From: an uncultured Collinsella sp.
GTDB taxonomy: Bacteria; Actinomycetota; Coriobacteriia; Coriobacteriales; Coriobacteriaceae
NCBI GenBank assembly: GCA_949287065.1
Contig: CASEEV010000004.1
Coordinates: 1-38,990, forward strand
DNA: 38,990 bases
Reading direction: 5' to 3'
Below are positions 6,470 through 17,371 of this stretch, in pieces. Every line of letters begins with the position of its first letter. Positions within the stretch are counted from its first letter, which is position 1. The notes below the pieces were generated by a model. It saw nothing but the letters and a program-made list of their open reading frames with translations. It was not told the origin of the DNA and searched no databases. The translations under genes and the position numbers were made by a program.

Positions 6470-8053
6470 TTAGAGCAGAGCCTCGAAGCGCTCGCGGACC
6501 TGAGGAACCTTGAGGCCGATGATGACCTGCATGTTCTTGCCGCGCTTGGCGACACCGCTGGTGCCCACGCTCTTGAAATCGGGGTCGTCGGCCACGAGGG
6601 TCTCGTCCTTGACGTTGACACGCAGACGGGTCACGCAGTTGGTCACGTCGACGATGTTGTCTTTGCCGCCCAGGAGCTCGAGAACCGCAGCGGCGATAAC
6701 CGCGTACTTGTCCTCAGCAGCGCCGTTGCCGTCGCCCGAGAAGCCGAGCTTCTCCTGACGGAACTCCTGCTTGGTGCGGAAGGTGATCTCCTCGGCGTCG
6801 TCCTCACGGCCGGGGACCTTGAAGTCGAACTTGAGGATGAGGAAGCGGAAGACCACGAACCAGATGCCGGTGAACACGAGGCCGATGACGAGACCGGTGA
6901 GGAAGGTCATCCAGTGGTTCGCGAGCAGCGGGATGATGGTCAGCGAGGAAGCCTCGATGAGGCCGCCGGTGAAGACGCCCACCACACCGAAGAGGTTCAT
7001 GACCGCGGCGCAGGTGGCGGCGAGGATGGCATGAACGATGAACAGCGGAGGAGCGACGAACAGGAAGGTGAACTCGATGGGCTCGGTCACGCCGCAGACG
7101 ATGGAGGTCAGGGTCGTGGGGATGAGCAGGCCGGCGAGCTCAACGCGCTTCTCGGGCTTGGCCGTAGCGTAGAAGGCCAGGGCGATGCCGGGAACACCGA
7201 AGAACTTGGACCACGAGGTCGCGGTGAAGGAAGCGTAGGGAGCGAGCTCCTTGATGGACTCCTTGGAAGCGGCGATCTCGGGGAGCGCCTTGGCGAAGGC
7301 AGCGTAGATGCCGCCCTGAACCGCAGCGTTGTCATAGTAGAACGGGCTGTAGAGCAGGTGGTGCAGGCCGAACGGGATGAGCAGGCGCTCGAGAAGCACG
7401 AACACCCAGACGCCGGCGACGCCCGTGGAGGTCACGAAGCCCTGGAAGGCGCGGAGGCCGTCCTGGACGTGGGGCCACACGAAGCAGCAGAGAAGCGCCA
7501 TGGGGATCATGACAAAGAAGCCGATCATGTAGATCAGACTCGAGCCGGAGAACACGCCGAGCCACTCGGGGAGCTCCGTGTCGAAGAACTTGTTGTGGAT
7601 CATGATGGTGATGCCCGAGATGAGAAGGGCGCCCATCATGCCCATGTCGAGGGTCTTGATGCTCGCGATGGTCGTAAGACCCGAGGAACCGCCGGCCTCG
7701 GCGCTGAAGTCAACGCCAAAGACAGGGCCCCACTGCGCGAGCATCGTGTTCATGAAGTACTGGAAGGCCAGGTACACGACCAGGGCCTCCATGCAGCAGC
7801 GCGCATGCTGCTTCTTGGCCAGACCGATGGGCAGCGAAACGGCAAACAGCAGCGGAAGCTGGTTGAACACCGTCCAAGCGCCCTGCAGCACCACGTTCCA
7901 GCACTGGTACCACATGGTCTCCGGAGCGGCGAGCGCTCCGAAGATAGCCTGAGTGGTGAAGAGCGTGCCAATACCCACCATGACGCCCGAGAAGGCGAAG
8001 AGCATGACGGGGGTGAACATCGCTCCACCGAACTTTTGGATTTTCTCCATCAT
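6470..8053 (-). CDS. PTS alpha-glucoside transporter subunit EIICB
   Basis: This 527-residue membrane protein is an EIIC-EIIB permease of the glucose/maltose PTS family. It imports a disaccharide and phosphorylates it. The EIIC domain (about 1-410) shows the expected multiple membrane spans and the substrate-site motif GVTEPIEFTFLF. The EIIB domain (about 440-527) has the phosphorylatable Cys473 in NCVTRLR. No EIIA domain is present, so phosphate must come from a EIIA encoded elsewhere, as for B. subtilis GlvC/MalP. The start ATG at 8053 (MMEKIQKFG) is preferred over an upstream ATG at 8098 because AAAGGGGA precedes it at good spacing. Three GntR-type operators and a promoter lie 140-190 bases upstream. 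The neighbouring GH4 enzyme points to maltose or a related alpha-glucoside as substrate. Confidence 0.93.
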   Translation of the reverse strand: MMEKIQKFGGAMFTPVMLFAFSGVMVGIGTLFTTQAIFGALAAPETMWYQCWNVVLQGAWTVFNQLPLLFAVSLPIGLAKKQHARCCMEALVVYLAFQYFMNTMLAQWGPVFGVDFSAEAGGSSGLTTIASIKTLDMGMMGALLISGITIMIHNKFFDTELPEWLGVFSGSSLIYMIGFFVMIPMALLCCFVWPHVQDGLRAFQGFVTSTGVAGVWVFVLLERLLIPFGLHHLLYSPFYYDNAAVQGGIYAAFAKALPEIAASKESIKELAPYASFTATSWSKFFGVPGIALAFYATAKPEKRVELAGLLIPTTLTSIVCGVTEPIEFTFLFVAPPLFIVHAILAATCAAVMNLFGVVGVFTGGLIEASSLTIIPLLANHWMTFLTGLVIGLVFTGIWFVVFRFLILKFDFKVPGREDDAEEITFRTKQEFRQEKLGFSGDGNGAAEDKYAVIAAAVLELLGGKDNIVDVTNCVTRLRVNVKDETLVADDPDFKSVGTSGVAKRGKNMQVIIGLKVPQVRERFEALL

Positions 8054-8172
8054 GGTAGAAAGTCCCCTTTCCCCTGGGCGCGCTGCGCGGCGATGCACAG
8101 CGCACTGCGAAGCAGATCCTTGCAGTCACGATTACCGACCTTCTCGCGCGGCGCCTCGCAATCTGGCCAGCA

Positions 8173-8236
8173 TGTTCGTACAAGTGCTGGAAACATAATC
8201 GCTTCGTTGTTCGTACAAGTCAAGCATGTTCGTACA
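8173..8236 (-). promoter_or_regulatory. Promoter of the PTS-GH4 operon with three GntR-type operators
   Basis: Three copies of TGTTCGTACA lie at 8173-8182, 8208-8217 and 8227-8236, each followed by AGT. Full sites approach CTTGTACGAACAAG, a near-perfect palindrome. On the minus strand TTGACT (8218-8223) and GATTAT (8195-8200) are 17 bases apart and form a plausible promoter. The middle operator fills the spacer, one is just upstream of the -35 box and one is downstream of the -10 box. Confidence 0.75.
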
Positions 8237-8419
8237 AGTTTTTTGCAGATGGGACGAGCGGTAGAATATCGGCGGCAAACGGCAGGCTGGAACGGTAGGT
8301 ATGCCGCGCGAGACCATGAGCGGTGCTTGGAACCCGCTCGCGTCGCCTGCGGCGCAGGACCTGGAAAACTCGATAGGCGGATTGCGTTTTACGCTTGCTT
8401 TAATCCGGCCTGCAGGGGG

Positions 8420-8460
8420 TATGATGATCAGAACTAACCTGTTCGAATAACTAAGGAGGT
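8420..8460 (+). promoter_or_regulatory. gntR promoter, degenerate operator and ribosome binding site
   Basis: A TATGAT -10 box lies at 8420-8425. CCTGTTCGAATAAC (core 8440-8449) follows, a degenerate version of the operator near the likely transcription start. A strong Shine-Dalgarno, AAGGAGGT (8453-8460), sits five bases before the GTG. This arrangement suggests weaker autoregulation of the repressor gene. Confidence 0.6.
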
Positions 8461-8465
8461 GCCCT

Positions 8466-9191
8466 GTGCCCAAAGCAGTGTTTCAGGACATCTACCGCGA
8501 CATTCGCGTGAATATCGAGAACGGAACGTACCGCTACCAGTCGTTCTTGCCCTCCGAGAACGAGCTCACGCAGCTCTACGGGTGCTCGCGCAGCTCCATC
8601 AGGCGCGCGCTCGCCATGCTCGCGCAGGACGCCTACGTGCTGCCGCAGCAGGGCAAGGGCGTCCGCGTGATCCGCAACCCCGCTATCACCGACCCGCGCG
8701 GCTACAGCGGCCTCGAGACCTTCGGCGAGATGGCCAAGCGCTTGGGATTCACGCCCCACACCGATGTGCTTGTTTGCGAAGAAGTTGTTGCCGGCGACGC
8801 ACTTGCCTCGCTCACCGGTTTTGACGTAGGCAGCAAGCTCACGCATATTTTGCGAGCGCGCTCCGCCAACGGTGTAACCATCTCGACCGACGAGAGCTAC
8901 TACCTGAGCGAGTCGGTGCCCGGCCTCACGCCCGAAATCGTGGCAAACTCGGTGTACGCCTACCTCGAGGGCACACTCGGCATGAAGATTGCCACAAGCC
9001 GCCGCATTATTACTGTGGAAGCGGTAACCCCGGCAGACAAAAGCATCATCGACCTCGACGGGTTCAACGCCGTTGGCGTTATGCGCTCACACACCTTTGA
9101 CGCCGACGGCATCATGATCGAGTACACCGAGACCCGCCAAAAACCTGGCGTTTTCTCGTCCGTCGAGACCGCCGTACGTCCTGCGCGCTAG
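8466..9191 (+). CDS. GntR-family transcriptional regulator, HutC/TreR subfamily
   Basis: This 241-residue regulator has an N-terminal winged helix-turn-helix (about 1-70; core PSENELTQLYGCSRSSIRRAL) and a C-terminal UTRA ligand-binding domain (about 90-235; includes TDESYYLSE and IEYTETR). It resembles TreR-type repressors that sense a phosphorylated sugar. It starts with GTG at 8466, chosen because AAGGAGGT lies five bases upstream. It is divergent from the PTS-GH4 operon. The CTTGTwCGwACAAG-type palindromes at its own promoter, the PTS promoter and the 3720-4328 promoter are the likely targets. The inducer is probably a phosphorylated alpha-glucoside or its product, which is inferred from context. 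Confidence 0.9.
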   Translation: MPKAVFQDIYRDIRVNIENGTYRYQSFLPSENELTQLYGCSRSSIRRALAMLAQDAYVLPQQGKGVRVIRNPAITDPRGYSGLETFGEMAKRLGFTPHTDVLVCEEVVAGDALASLTGFDVGSKLTHILRARSANGVTISTDESYYLSESVPGLTPEIVANSVYAYLEGTLGMKIATSRRIITVEAVTPADKSIIDLDGFNAVGVMRSHTFDADGIMIEYTETRQKPGVFSSVETAVRPAR

Positions 9192-12320: not shown

Positions 12321-12393
12321 GGGCCGTTAGCTCAGCTGGCAGAGCAGGGGACTTTTAATCCCAAGGTCTAGGGTTCGAACCCCTAACGGCCCA
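12321..12393 (+). tRNA. tRNA-Lys (anticodon UUU)
   Basis: The cloverleaf can be folded by eye. The acceptor stem is GGGCCGT/ACGGCCC, and the D-arm is GCTC...GAGC. The anticodon loop CTTTTAA has TTT at 12354-12356, and the T-arm is TAGGG-TTCGAAC-CCCTA. The discriminator is A12393. CCA is not encoded; the next bases are CCC. A strong intrinsic terminator follows. Confidence 0.95.
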
Positions 12394-12561
12394 CCCATCG
12401 TTGATAAACCTCGCTACCGGCGAGGTTTTTTCGTATTCGGCGCCCATCCATGGGTTCGAACCCGCTAGGGCGCGAGCGTAAAGCGGATGCGGAGCATCCG
12501 TAGCGAGCGCGCGAGCGGCCGCGGGCGCCGCCAGGCGCACGCCGAACCCCTAACGGCCCAC
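12376..12561 (+). repeat. Direct repeat of the tRNA-Lys 3' end
   Basis: The 19 bases CGAACCCCTAACGGCCCAC inside tRNA-Lys (12376-12394) recur exactly at 12543-12561. Weaker similarity continues downstream of both copies: GATAAACCTC after the first and GATAAATCCTC after the second. Between them lies a further T-arm-like piece, GGGTTCGAACCC (12452-12463). The second copy has no acceptor 5' half, D-arm or anticodon arm, so it is a fragment. This looks like an attachment-site duplication or the remains of a tandem tRNA. Confidence 0.75.
12407..12431 (+). terminator. Intrinsic terminator of tRNA-Lys
   Basis: An eight-pair stem, AACCTCGC / GCGAGGTT, with a five-base loop is followed by a run of T to 12431. 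Confidence 0.85.
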
Positions 12562-13058
12562 TTCATTGCGATAAATCCTCTCAGCACACCACCCCCTCCT
12601 CCAACATCGCGCACATCGTCCCGCGTTGGGAGAAAAACAGCATTCTGAGAACCGAATTCTTGATTTCTGTGCGCAACGTCTCGGCTCGGGAGAGTTTGGC
12701 GGTTCGAGGCAGAAGCGGCACCCGACGTTTCCGCAGGTAGATCGCGTGGTTCTTCTCGTCCGCTCTCCCAAGGCGTGATCTTGCGCCAGCTCTTCTCTCC
12801 CAAGGCGAGACGATGTGCCGCGAAGGCCCGTTTTTTCAAGCTCAAAAGTGCGATTCTCTCCCAAGCAAGGACGATGTGCGCCGGGTATCTCTGGGCGGAC
12901 CAGCAAGCAGCCGCCTGCCTCTCTCCCAAGGCGGGACGATGCGGCGGCGGCGCTCGCGGATCAACCGTACAAAGAAGGAGCGCCCCGCGGGAGAGGCGCC
13001 CCGAAAAAACTTTCCCCACGGTCAGCCCCCCGCGCGAGGCACTAACGGCGGCAAACCG
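12562..13058. repeat. Non-coding region with six copies of a ~27-bp dispersed repeat
   Basis: The consensus is about GCGCACATCGTCCCGCCTTGGGAGAGAAT. Two copies read in plus orientation (12610-12636 and a degenerate one at 12671-12697). Four read in the opposite orientation, their CTCTCCCAAG ends starting at 12763, 12795, 12856 and 12921. Spacings are 61, 32, 61 and 65 bases. Open frames through the region shift frame between repeat copies and show no credible protein. A stem near 12977-13001 could terminate the aminopeptidase transcript. Confidence 0.65.
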
Positions 13059-14345
13059 TTATTGCTGCTCCCAGGCCCACTGACCGGCAACGAAGACCGG
13101 CACCTCGGTGCCGTCGGCCTTGATGCCCGTTACGCACAGGTCGTCGGTGCCGATCATGAAGTCCACGTGCGTGTGCGACTGGTTGACGCCCACGGCCAGC
13201 AGCTCGTCGGCCTCCATGTCGTACCCGCCCTCGTAGCACTCCGGGAACCCCATGCCCAGCGCCAGATGGCAGCTCGCGTTCTCGTCGTAGAGGGTGTCGT
13301 AGAACAGAAGCCCGCTCTCGCGGATCGGCGTGTTTTTGGAGATCAGCGCCACCTCGCCAAGCCGGCGCGCGCCTTCGTCGATGGCAAGGATCTGATCGAG
13401 CGCGTCCTTGCCCTGGGCGGCGTCCCACTCAACCGCCACCCCGTGCTCAAAGCGGATCCAGAACCCCGAGATCTTGGTGCCGTGGTGCACCAGCGGCAGC
13501 GCAGCATGCACCACGCCCTCGACGCGATGAAAATCCGGCGAGGTAAAGACCTCCTCGGTCGGGATGTTCGGAAAGAACGCGCGCCCCTCGGGCGTCTCGG
13601 TCTTGCCGCCGTCCCATACGTGCTTCCTGGTAAGCCCCACCACAAGGTCCGTGCCGTTGGCCGCCGTATAGCGCAGCCGATCAAAATGCGCCTCGTTGAG
13701 CATGCGCAGGTTCTTCTCAAAGGTGGCGTTGTGCAGCTCCCAGTCAGCACACGGGTCGTCACCCAGCGCGCGCGACGCGTCGAGAATCGCCTGCCAGAGC
13801 CGGTAGCACGCCGCCTCGTCGGAAAGCCCCGGAAACACCGTGCGCGCCCACGCCGCAACCGGCGCGCCGGCTATGCACCACGGGTTGATGTTGAAGTCGA
13901 GCCCATGGCGAAACACGCGGCACTGGCTGTTGCGCGCCGTAGCCGCGGCCATGGGCTTGGCCGGGTCGATCCCCTTGAGCGCCTCGGGGTCTGCGCCCTC
14001 GACAAACACAAAGCACGCGCCCCGCTCCGCCAGCGAGTCGTACATGAGCCGCTGCCAGCTCGGCGTCTCGCGGAACCACTCGACCGGTACGTTCTCGTAG
14101 GTGGCGCGCGTAACCTCGTCGTCGCTCCAGATCATCGTCACGTGGCCGGCGCCGGCAGCGTAGGCTTTACGCACCAGCAGGCGTGCAAAGGGCGCCGTCT
14201 CGACCGGCGCGCTCACCACAACTTCCTGCCCGGGCTGCACCGCCACGCCTTTGCGCACGATAAGCTCGGCATAGCGCTCGATGCTCGGCTGCAGCGCGCG
14301 CGTGCCGGCAACCACTTCCTCGTGGGTCAGATCGGATCGAAACAC
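13059..14345 (-). CDS. M29-family aminopeptidase
   Basis: This 428-residue protein belongs to the thermophilic-metalloprotease M29 family (AmpS/PepS/aminopeptidase T), cytosolic exopeptidases with a dinuclear metal centre. The hallmark NIPTEEVFTSPD is present near the middle, as are the downstream FEHG and the C-terminal cluster SHTHVDFMIGT. The length fits the family's ~410 residues. The start is assigned to GTG at 14345 (VFRSDLTHEEV), because GGAGG lies four bases upstream. ATGs at 14366 and 14447 would overlap that Shine-Dalgarno or extend into the preceding terminator. It appears monocistronic, after the terminator at 14381-14415. Confidence 0.93.
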   Translation of the reverse strand: MFRSDLTHEEVVAGTRALQPSIERYAELIVRKGVAVQPGQEVVVSAPVETAPFARLLVRKAYAAGAGHVTMIWSDDEVTRATYENVPVEWFRETPSWQRLMYDSLAERGACFVFVEGADPEALKGIDPAKPMAAATARNSQCRVFRHGLDFNINPWCIAGAPVAAWARTVFPGLSDEAACYRLWQAILDASRALGDDPCADWELHNATFEKNLRMLNEAHFDRLRYTAANGTDLVVGLTRKHVWDGGKTETPEGRAFFPNIPTEEVFTSPDFHRVEGVVHAALPLVHHGTKISGFWIRFEHGVAVEWDAAQGKDALDQILAIDEGARRLGEVALISKNTPIRESGLLFYDTLYDENASCHLALGMGFPECYEGGYDMEADELLAVGVNQSHTHVDFMIGTDDLCVTGIKADGTEVPVFVAGQWAWEQQ

Positions 14346-14380
14346 AGGTCCTCCAGGGTATCGCATACACAAATATGGAC

Positions 14381-14415
14381 AAAACGGCCCGACCGCGGCA
14401 AGCGATCGGGCCGTT
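14381..14415 (-). terminator. Intrinsic terminator of the 14466-15713 gene
   Basis: A ten-pair perfect stem, AACGGCCCGA / TCGGGCCGTT (14383-14392 / 14406-14415), is followed on the minus strand by TTTTGTCC. Two smaller perfect hairpins precede it, at 14415-14436 and 14440-14456. Confidence 0.75.
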
Positions 14416-14465: not shown

Positions 14466-15713
14466 TTACGCGGTGACGTGAGCCACAGCGCCCTTGAAGT
14501 CGCTCGCGATCCAGCCGAGGTCAACGACCTTGGCCGTGGCGTCAAAGCGCACAAGTCCGTCGTTCGTCACGCGGCCGAGCGCCAAAAACGGCACGCCCGA
14601 GGCGCGCAGTTGGTCGATAAGCTCGCCCTCGCGGTCGATGGCGGCAGTTGCGATGATGCGCAGCGGGCTCTTCTCGGAGTCGCCCACCACGGAGGGCACC
14701 GCGGCGTAGTCGCAGTCAACGGCGAGGAACGCACCCTTGCCGCTCGCACCGCTGCACTCGAGAAGCGCGGTGGCAAGCGAGCCGGGGCACGCATGGGCCG
14801 AGCGCACCGTGCCGGCGTCGAGCGCCGCGCGGGCGGCGGCGTCGATGGCAACGTTGCCCTCGTAGGTGACCTCGGCGGTGAGCAGCGGCTGGCCGATAAG
14901 CACGATCAGGTCATCGGCGTCAAGGTAGCCCATCGGGGCGTCGTGGTAGCCGTCGATCTCGGCGATCGCAGGCTTGGGCGCGGGCTTCTTGGCCGAAGCT
15001 TTCTTGGCAGTAGCCTTCTTGGCGGGAGCCTTCTTGGCAGCCGGCTTCTTCTCGACGGGAGCCTCGGCAGCCTCGGCCTTGGCCGGCTCCTCGGCGGGAG
15101 CCTCTGCCTTGGCGGCAGCTGCGGCGGTCTTCTTGGCAGCCGTCTTCTTAGCCGGGGCCTTCTTGGCCGCGGGCTTCTTAGCGGCCGGCTTGGCCTCCAC
15201 CTGGGAAGCCTCCTCCGCAGCCGCGGGCTTCTCGGCCTCTGCGACCTTCTCGGCCGCGGCGGGCTTCTCCTCGGCCTTGGCGGCAGCCTTCTTGGCCGGC
15301 ACCTTGGCAGCGGTCTTCTTGGCAGCAGGAGCCTTCTTGGCCGGAGCCTTCTTGGCTGCAGGCTTGGCCTCTGCCTTTGCGGGCTCCTCCACTGCCTCAG
15401 CGGGCTTGGCTGCCTCGGCGGCAGGAGCGGCGGCCTTCTTGGAAGTCTTGGCGGCCGCGGTCTTAGCCGTCGTGCTCTTGGCGGCCGCGGTCTTAGCAGC
15501 GGTCTTGGTCGTTGCAGCCTTCTTGGCGGCCGGCTTCTTGGCGGCCGGCTTGGCCGCCTCCTCCGCAGCCGCGGCGGGCTCCTCTACGGGCTTCTCCTCT
15601 GCTTTGGCGGCAGCCTTGGTTGCCGCGGCGGTCTTCTTCTCGGCCGCAGCAGTGCTCTTGGCGGCGGCCGACGCCCTCTTGGCAGATGTCGACGCAGTCT
15701 TCCTGGTGGCCAT
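14466..15713 (-). CDS. Histone-H1-like Ala/Lys-rich tail fused to a PurL C-terminal-like domain
   Basis: This is a 415-residue two-part protein. Residues ~1-245 are almost only Ala, Lys, Pro, Glu and Thr, with tandem PAAKKAPAKKA units like histone H1 or bacterial Hc1/HupB tails. They alternate with acidic EEPAKAEA blocks. Residues ~250-415 form a globular domain. The order YLDADDLIVLIG, VRSAHACPGSLATALLE, GVPFLALGRVTNDG resembles the last domain of FGAM synthase PurL (DxxDxVxLLG, VRSAHDxSxGGLAVALAE, GxPxxxIGxVT). The PurL Asp and double Gly of that loop are missing, so catalysis is unlikely. It shares direction with purC two genes upstream. The ATG at 15713 is preferred over an in-frame TTG at 15719 because GAAGGGA is eight bases away. 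Nucleoid or RNA binding by the tail is inference. Confidence 0.75.
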   Translation of the reverse strand: MATRKTASTSAKRASAAAKSTAAAEKKTAAATKAAAKAEEKPVEEPAAAAEEAAKPAAKKPAAKKAATTKTAAKTAAAKSTTAKTAAAKTSKKAAAPAAEAAKPAEAVEEPAKAEAKPAAKKAPAKKAPAAKKTAAKVPAKKAAAKAEEKPAAAEKVAEAEKPAAAEEASQVEAKPAAKKPAAKKAPAKKTAAKKTAAAAAKAEAPAEEPAKAEAAEAPVEKKPAAKKAPAKKATAKKASAKKPAPKPAIAEIDGYHDAPMGYLDADDLIVLIGQPLLTAEVTYEGNVAIDAAARAALDAGTVRSAHACPGSLATALLECSGASGKGAFLAVDCDYAAVPSVVGDSEKSPLRIIATAAIDREGELIDQLRASGVPFLALGRVTNDGLVRFDATAKVVDLGWIASDFKGAVAHVTA

Positions 15714-15825
15714 GCTCAACGTCCCTTCTCGCGCGTGCCACGTGAGCGGACGGCGGTCCTCTCCTGCTGCCCGCTCGTATTAGCAGGTCCCCGTGGGACC
15801 CCAGCGCTAAGCCCGCAAAGGGGCC

Positions 15826-16440
15826 TTAGGCGCTCTTCTTCTTTTTCTTCGTCCGAGCCTTCTCGTCGCGCTCGGCACGCTCGCGAGCAGCGCGCTCGAG
15901 AACCGCGTCGAGCTTGTTCTCAGACATGCCTTCCACCGTGGCGCGCACCTCGTTGCGCACCGGGCGAATACGGATGAAGTCGTACCCCACCGCCACGAAC
16001 AGCAGGGCATAGGCGCAGACGAGCACCACAAAGCCGCCGGTCACGAGCTCGGGATGCGTCTCGGAGATGTTAAGCACAAAGAACAGAACGAGCGACACGA
16101 ACGCAAGCACACCGGCGATGCCGAGCAGCGTCCACCACGTGCGGCGGCGCTGCTTGTACACCGGCTGCTCCTTGAGGAGAAACTCGGTGGCGCTGTACAC
16201 CCGGTCCTCAAAGCGGCGCTCCTCGGCGCGGCGGGCGCGCTTCTCCTCCTTGGACAGGCCCGCAAGCGACTCGCCGCGCTCGCGCTGGGCGCGACGGGCC
16301 TTGGACTTGGCGGGAACCACGCGCACCGAGCCTGCCGCGGCGCGGGCGGGCTTAGCGCTGGAAGCCGACTTGCGCGCCATGCCCGACGTGCGCTCGCGCT
16401 CGGGCTGGTTGCGCTTGTTCATAGGACTACGCTGACTCAC
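15826..16440 (-). CDS. Small membrane protein with basic N- and C-terminal tails, unknown function
   Basis: This 204-residue protein is not recognised. Residues 1-100 are very basic with Ala/Ser-rich stretches. Two transmembrane segments follow, near 105-128 and 135-155. The last ~45 residues are charged and helical, ending in KKKKKSA. Both tails are probably cytoplasmic. The start is GTG at 16440, directly abutting the purC stop codon (TAA then GTG), with AAGGAG inside the end of purC. This points to translational coupling to purC. An ATG at 16422 lacks a Shine-Dalgarno. The architecture resembles the 3720-4328 protein, but I see no sequence similarity that would make them homologues. Confidence 0.75.
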   Translation of the reverse strand: MSQRSPMNKRNQPERERTSGMARKSASSAKPARAAAGSVRVVPAKSKARRAQRERGESLAGLSKEEKRARRAEERRFEDRVYSATEFLLKEQPVYKQRRRTWWTLLGIAGVLAFVSLVLFFVLNISETHPELVTGGFVVLVCAYALLFVAVGYDFIRIRPVRNEVRATVEGMSENKLDAVLERAARERAERDEKARTKKKKKSA

Positions 16441-17328
16441 TTACAGCTGCTCCTTCATGGACTCGAACGTCTTGGCGGTGATGATCTCGTACGCCTCGCG
16501 GTAACGGTTGGCCGTGCCCTCGATGACCTCGGCGGGCAGGTGCGGCGGCTCGCCGGTCATATCCCAGTTGGCCTTGAGCCAGTCGCGCACGTACTGCTTG
16601 TCGTAGCTCGGCTGGACCTTGCCCTCCTCGTAAGAGTCGGCAGGCCAGAAGCGGCTCGAGTCGGGCGTGAGGCACTCGTCGATGAGGGTGACCTTGCCGT
16701 CGATGATGCCGAACTCAAACTTGGTATCGGCGATGATGATGCCGCGCGTGGCCGCGTACTCGGCGGCGGCGGTATAGATCTCGAGCGAGAGGTCGCGCAG
16801 CTGGCTGGCGATGTCGGCGCCCACGATGTCGGCGCAGCGCTCGTAGGAGATGTTCTCGTCATGGTCGCCGATGGCGGCCTTGGTGGACGGCGTGAAGAGC
16901 GGCTCGGGCAGCTTGGAGGCCTCGGTCAGGCCGGCAGGCAGGTGGATGCCGCACACGGTGCCGTCCTCGTCGTAGGTCTTCTTGCCGGAGCCGGTGAGAT
17001 AGCCGCGCACGATGCACTCCACCGGAATGGTCTCGGCCTTCTTGACAAGCATCGAACGACCAGCGAGGTAGTTGCGGTAGGGCGCGAACTCCTCGGGGAA
17101 GTCGGCGGGGTCGATCGAGATCAGGTGGTTGGGCACGAGGTCGCGGAAGCGGTCGAACCAGAAGGCCGAGATGCGGTTGAGAACCTCGCCCTTGTAGGGA
17201 ATCTCGTCGGGGAGGATGAAGTCGAACGCAGAAATGCGGTCGGTGACCACCATCAGCAGCGCATCGCCGGCGTCGTAGATGTCGCGGACCTTGCCGTGCG
17301 AATCCGGGCGAATTTCCTGAAGAGACAT
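16441..17328 (-). CDS. purC: Phosphoribosylaminoimidazole-succinocarboxamide synthase (SAICAR synthetase)
   Basis: This 295-residue enzyme of purine biosynthesis joins aspartate to CAIR using ATP. Family motifs are visible: GKVRDIYD near the start, TDRISAFD, the VECIVRGYLTGSG substrate loop, and IADTKFEFG and DECLTPDSSR in the C-terminal half. The length matches the longer type of SAICAR synthetase. The ATG at 17328 (MSLQEIRPDS) is chosen because AAAGGAG precedes it; an ATG at 17382 would overlap the preceding kinase gene. The next gene starts at the base after its stop codon. The other pur genes are not in the window. Confidence 0.97.
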   Translation of the reverse strand: MSLQEIRPDSHGKVRDIYDAGDALLMVVTDRISAFDFILPDEIPYKGEVLNRISAFWFDRFRDLVPNHLISIDPADFPEEFAPYRNYLAGRSMLVKKAETIPVECIVRGYLTGSGKKTYDEDGTVCGIHLPAGLTEASKLPEPLFTPSTKAAIGDHDENISYERCADIVGADIASQLRDLSLEIYTAAAEYAATRGIIIADTKFEFGIIDGKVTLIDECLTPDSSRFWPADSYEEGKVQPSYDKQYVRDWLKANWDMTGEPPHLPAEVIEGTANRYREAYEIITAKTFESMKEQL

Positions 17329-17371
17329 GCTGGTCAGCTCCTTTGAAATCATGTACTGACAGGCGTTGTAA

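Follow-up and report, generated by a model that had tools for sequence, protein, structure and literature searches.

A probable purL relic with a histone H1-like tail behind purC in an uncultured Collinsella

Introduction

The small form of PurL (PRK01213/NF002290) is built from four domains, A1, B1, A2 and B2. In Salmonella PurL, the active site is located in the first half of the enzyme; the second half (A2, B2) contains an ADP site whose function is unknown (PMC3815217). The acquisition of a long PurL by transfer in a small-PurL lineage has a precedent in archaea (PMC3261824).

Tails rich in lysine, alanine and proline, with AKKA or PAKKA repeats, are known on unrelated folds, namely in HupB, the mycobacterial HU protein with a PAKK/KAAK tail, and in HbhA (PMC5676037, PMC10665949). 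The tail of HupB is required for nucleoid association (PMC5676037), and the AKKA tail of HbhA is required for DNA binding (PMC10665949).

Here we describe a gene that combines such a tail with a single PurL domain. It lies in a stretch of 38,990 nucleotides from an uncultured Collinsella sp. (assembly GCA_949287065.1, contig CASEEV010000004.1, positions 1 to 38,990 of the forward strand), hereafter the window. An earlier note on this DNA described a histone H1-like tail fused to a degenerate PurL domain; both the tail and the unusual architecture are supported by the present analysis. Our literature searches found no description of such a tailed-B2 protein or of its architecture.

Results

The tailed gene and its neighbours

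The tailed gene (14466..15713, reverse strand) encodes 415 amino acids and runs from an ATG at 15713 to a TAA at 14466, with the same build in all four genomes of the genus. A TTG located 6 nt upstream of this ATG is likewise open as an alternative start. We favour the ATG, because the spacing of the Shine-Dalgarno-like AGAAGGGA (15722..15729, reverse strand) that precedes it fits this start, and because a similar site is present in all four genomes. A terminator-like hairpin with a T run lies 3' of the gene (14383..14415, reverse strand), and the next gene past the hairpin encodes an M29 aminopeptidase (13059..14363, reverse strand).

Upstream on the same strand are a gene for a membrane protein with a basic N-terminus (15826..16440) and purC (16441..17346; SAICAR synthetase, E 4e-77), which meet at a TAA-GTG junction. 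The shared direction with purC and this junction had both been reported in the earlier note, and we found them as described in the window. Its wording that the tailed gene is "in line with purC" holds for the strand but not for immediate adjacency, as the membrane gene and a 112-bp gap intervene.

Of 60 Coriobacteriales genomes, 58 gave a match to the membrane gene, which adjoins purC in most Coriobacteriales searched, usually directly behind it. Its product has about 200 residues and matches no Pfam family above the cut-off. A 26-nt repeat (TTCTCTCCCAAGGCGAGACGATGTGC-like) occurs four times (window 12761-12944), at spacings of 32, 61 and 65 bases, in the region that separates a tRNA-Lys from the M29 gene. 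Within 12321-12560, the 3' end of the tRNA-Lys recurs behind the gene as a second copy (cgaacccctaacggcccac, near 12542-12560), which looks as if it were the trace of an inserted element.

The lysine-rich tail

The histone H1-like tail comprises residues 1-246 (14976..15713, reverse strand) and the globular domain residues 247-415 (169 residues; 14469..14975, reverse strand), in agreement with the approximately 245 residues of PAKKA-type repeats and 165-residue domain given earlier. In the window gene the tail consists of 42% alanine, 23% lysine, 11% glutamate and 9% proline, has a net charge of about +33 and contains AKKA and AAKK eight times each. Across the four genus genomes its net charge ranges from +33 to +42 and its length from 243 to 309 residues, and its sequence is poorly conserved. 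The underlying DNA is a patchwork of tandem units of 15, 18, 21 and 30 bases; hence, the tail probably arose by repeat expansion.

Long, rich in Lys, Ala and Pro, net basic and carrying AKKA/PAKKA repeats, the tail resembles those of HupB and HbhA. In contrast to these proteins, the tail is N-terminal and Glu-rich, the folded part is a PurL domain rather than HU or a coiled coil, and DNA binding is putative. The HU fold (PF00216) was not found in the tailed protein. Similarity to Hc2/HctB (PF07382) extends to tail composition and a weak profile score of 23 bits, below the 40-bit cut-off, but the tailed protein differs in having a PurL-derived domain. Compared with classical H1 tails, the tail is more acidic. 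A search for paralogues of the tail matched only the tailed gene itself, in the window's assembly (G000) and in G001; this is a weak test, because the known tails of G002 and G003 escaped it.

Identity of the globular domain

The kinship to the last AIRS-like domain of PurL that the earlier note had claimed is now solid. In a profile comparison with hhalign, the stretch 14481..14939 (reverse strand) matched B2, the final AIRS_C domain of small-form PurL, across 148 columns at 30% identity (P 98.6, E 9e-16), whereas the control against the first AIRS_C domain (B1) reached only P 7, which identifies the domain as B2. The segment order DxIVLIG, SAHxC, VPxxxxGxV is common to both. As a single sequence, the domain matched the NCBIfam PurL model at E 7e-4 (positions 589-703 of 723) and the PurLs of G039, G041 and G055 at E 1e-6 to 3e-5. 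A genus profile of the domain retrieved full PurLs down to E 2e-14, with about 30 PurLs matched in the order. In the reverse direction, a degenerate half-PurL from G110 as query returned the window gene at E 7e-10 and 36% identity. The resemblance to PurL is thus far beyond chance, and these profile matches assign the domain to B2 of small-form PurL.

The Pfam AIRS_C profile (PF02769), with which the earlier note had proposed to check the kinship, gave no hit on the domain at E values up to 1; it does score on AIRS_C proteins of the window's own genome. An origin from that genome's long PurL or PurM was rejected, as neither the genus profile nor the single domain found a paralogue at E 0.001 and the B1 control failed. 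Sequence searches of the PDB (single domain and genus profile) returned nothing relevant, and searches of PHROGs and of plasmids gave no match.

AlphaFold2, given the window sequence, L011 and one phage PurL row, predicted a model with pLDDT 57, pTM 0.60 and the element order E-H-E-H-E-H-E-E-H. This model depends on the phage row: the control with two rows and no phage PurL failed (pLDDT 37). In a Foldseek search with the pLDDT 57 model all E values were above 0.03 and CutA rows ranked over PurL. The PurL rows lead only after VIA realignment, where nine PurL/FGAMS entries come first, the best being Thermus PurL (Z 8.7, rmsd 5.0, 118 residues).

Loss of PurL motifs

The tailed protein consists of B2 and the tail only; A1, B1 and A2 are absent. 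B2 was aligned with 27 PurLs from the order, including the G110 half. At QPLLTAEVTYEG (14856..14891, reverse strand), about 19 residues including the PurL motif GGSEY are deleted. SAHACPGS (14778..14801, reverse strand) stands in place of PurL SAHDCSEGG, so that HDxSEGG has become HACPGS here, or RNCDKS in the genus's other two species. PSVVGDSEKSPLR (14658..14696, reverse strand) stands in place of LFSETQSR, which in the genus has become VGDSEKSPLR or similar. All three motifs are lost in all four genus genomes.

The AHACPGS replacement of the PurL loop AHDxSxGG was therefore correctly read in the earlier note, and its view of the domain as non-catalytic gains from the two further motifs lost and the absence of A2. 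Judged by these losses, the lone B2 is not catalytic and cannot be FGAM synthase, and it is unlikely to be a nucleotide sensor.

Distribution and history of the locus

The same architecture beside purC, for which the earlier note had suggested a search, was found with the domain profile in all four genus genomes and in none of the 63 other genomes of the family. We extended the search to 397 genomes of the order and 396 genomes drawn from the phylum. There, almost every other match sits in an open frame of about 730-1000 amino acids, the size of small-form PurL, and a few listed matches sit in shorter frames; the matches that were read are small-form PurL or its half. Weak matches in G009 and G139 (E 0.003-0.01) were taken as chance, since gene calls nearby show neither PurL nor a tailed gene. 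Among viral contigs of IMG/VR (L186-L188, L190-L194), PurL frames appear to end past A2, without the last AIRS_C domain.

The tailed B2 gene occupies the genomic place that purL holds elsewhere. The order purC-membrane gene-purS-purQ-purL was found in G045 and G049, and purC-membrane gene-purQ-purL in G103 and G039. In G110, of a sister family, what follows the purC-membrane gene pair is the second half of PurL, free-standing and degenerate; in G053 the pair is followed by a long purL, and in the four genus genomes by the tailed B2 gene. Across the 20 loci read from the family's remaining five genera, the M29 gene lies directly behind the membrane gene, with nothing recognisable between them.

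The G110 half (L148, about 7861-8853) is the closest parallel. Like the tailed gene, it is a degenerate remnant of small PurL directly behind the purC-membrane gene pair, in a genome with a long PurL, and it has AHAC for AHDC (altered loop AHACGEGG). Unlike the tailed gene, it keeps A2 together with B2 as well as the EGG and SETQGR motifs, and it has no histone-like tail.

In a check of 30 genomes, a long PurL was encoded elsewhere in the genome in the four genus genomes and G110. No long PurL was found in the 12 genomes of this sample that matched the small form (G039, G041, G045, G049, G057, G100, G102, G103, G105, G106, G336 and G356). The sister genera use the same long PurL without a tailed gene.

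A tree of purC, the M29 peptidase and the membrane protein placed the genus as sister to the remaining genera of the family (support of the family 90/84, of those remaining genera 89/70), and the family of G103 and G110 falls outside. Hence, the pattern within the family requires no more than a single retention and a single loss. By path length, G110 and its family come closest in the domain tree, but a long branch lies between, which makes this proximity weak evidence.

Selection on the domain

We calculated dN/dS from Nei-Gojobori counts for the pairs window versus G001 and G002 versus G003. The domain gave 0.095 and 0.10, about equal to purC (0.085 and 0.09), and the tail gave 0.16 and 0.22. 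The domain is thus under purifying selection. Between the two subclades the domain dN/dS is 0.66, which implies fast change after their split.

Discussion

The origin of the tailed gene as an in-place relic of purL is well supported by homology and gene order. The ancestor would have carried purC, the membrane gene, purS, purQ and purL. A long, glutaminase-fused PurL, coded at another locus, would then have taken over FGAM synthesis, after which the old purSQL genes decayed. In the genus, B2 alone would have survived at the purL place, lost its ligand motifs and joined a repeat-built Ala/Lys/Pro tail. Homology, position, motif loss, the presence of a long PurL and purifying selection are the observed parts of this explanation.

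What the protein does is suggested by analogy. Like those of HupB and HbhA, the tail may bind DNA (or RNA) in a sequence-independent manner; its composition makes nucleic-acid binding plausible. B2, as the folded core, would determine the oligomeric state or a protein partner, and the whole would be a nucleoid-associated protein of the H1 type. We rate the tailed protein as DNA-binding-like and built on a pseudoenzyme domain, and we think it fairly probable that a small-form purL relic at its old place is re-used as an H1-like nucleic-acid-binding protein. The fast change of the domain between subclades, the poorly conserved tail, its 11% Glu and a structure model of only pLDDT 57 count against this explanation.

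A more specific proposal, possible but doubtful, is that a purine-enzyme domain forms the core of an H1-like chromosome binder in a lineage that may lack detectable HU. In the window's assembly, one 96.9% complete draft genome, HU/IHF (PF00216) gave no match, and the control search was positive in 9 of 14 reference genomes.

The tail might instead bind another polyanion or surface, such as polyphosphate, the ribosome or RNA, or a cell-wall polymer, in which case the protein would not organise DNA. Lys/Ala/Pro tails are versatile, as sulfated glycoconjugates are a further ligand of the HbhA tail and RplV, a protein with AKKA repeats, binds 23S rRNA (PMC10665949); moreover, K and E blocks are mixed within the present tail. 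However, neither a signal peptide nor a transmembrane segment can be discerned by eye in the protein, and the nearest functional precedents in the Actinomycetota are DNA binders. We consider this alternative unlikely.

The domain might also dock on a purine enzyme, the long PurL or another one, and serve there as a subunit for localisation or regulation, which we consider very unlikely. The domain does stem from part of the PurL complex, and a long PurL is present in every genome with the tailed gene, but the sister genera rely on the same long PurL and lack the tailed gene.

The earlier note had suggested that the domain senses a purine nucleotide or other effector and so couples purine state to the nucleoid or transcription. 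This would fit the PurL descent of the domain, the ADP site in the second half of Salmonella PurL (PMC3815217) and the proximity of purC. Yet A2, which completes that site, is absent, and GGSEY, HDxSEGG and LFSETQSR are lost in every copy. The neighbourhood of purC is explained by the place inherited from the old purC-membrane gene-purS-purQ-purL cluster and is therefore no evidence of a regulatory link. Sensing by the lone B2 is likewise very unlikely. A decaying, functionless pseudogene is less credible still: the reduction series across the order does end in loss in the sister genera and the subclades diverged fast, but frame and ribosome site are intact in four genomes, a domain dN/dS of about 0.1 in two independent pairs speaks against a dying gene, and gaining a long charged tail is not decay.

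The preferred reading, re-use of the purL relic as an H1-like protein, carries a warning that adjacency to purC should not be read as a regulatory link. The locus would be a clear case of an enzyme gene reduced and re-used in place after another form of the enzyme took over, with the intermediate stages, from the full enzyme through its half and the tailed single domain to loss, still present at the same locus in extant relatives. If the tail does bind DNA, the case shows how any stable folded fragment can become the core of an H1-like protein.
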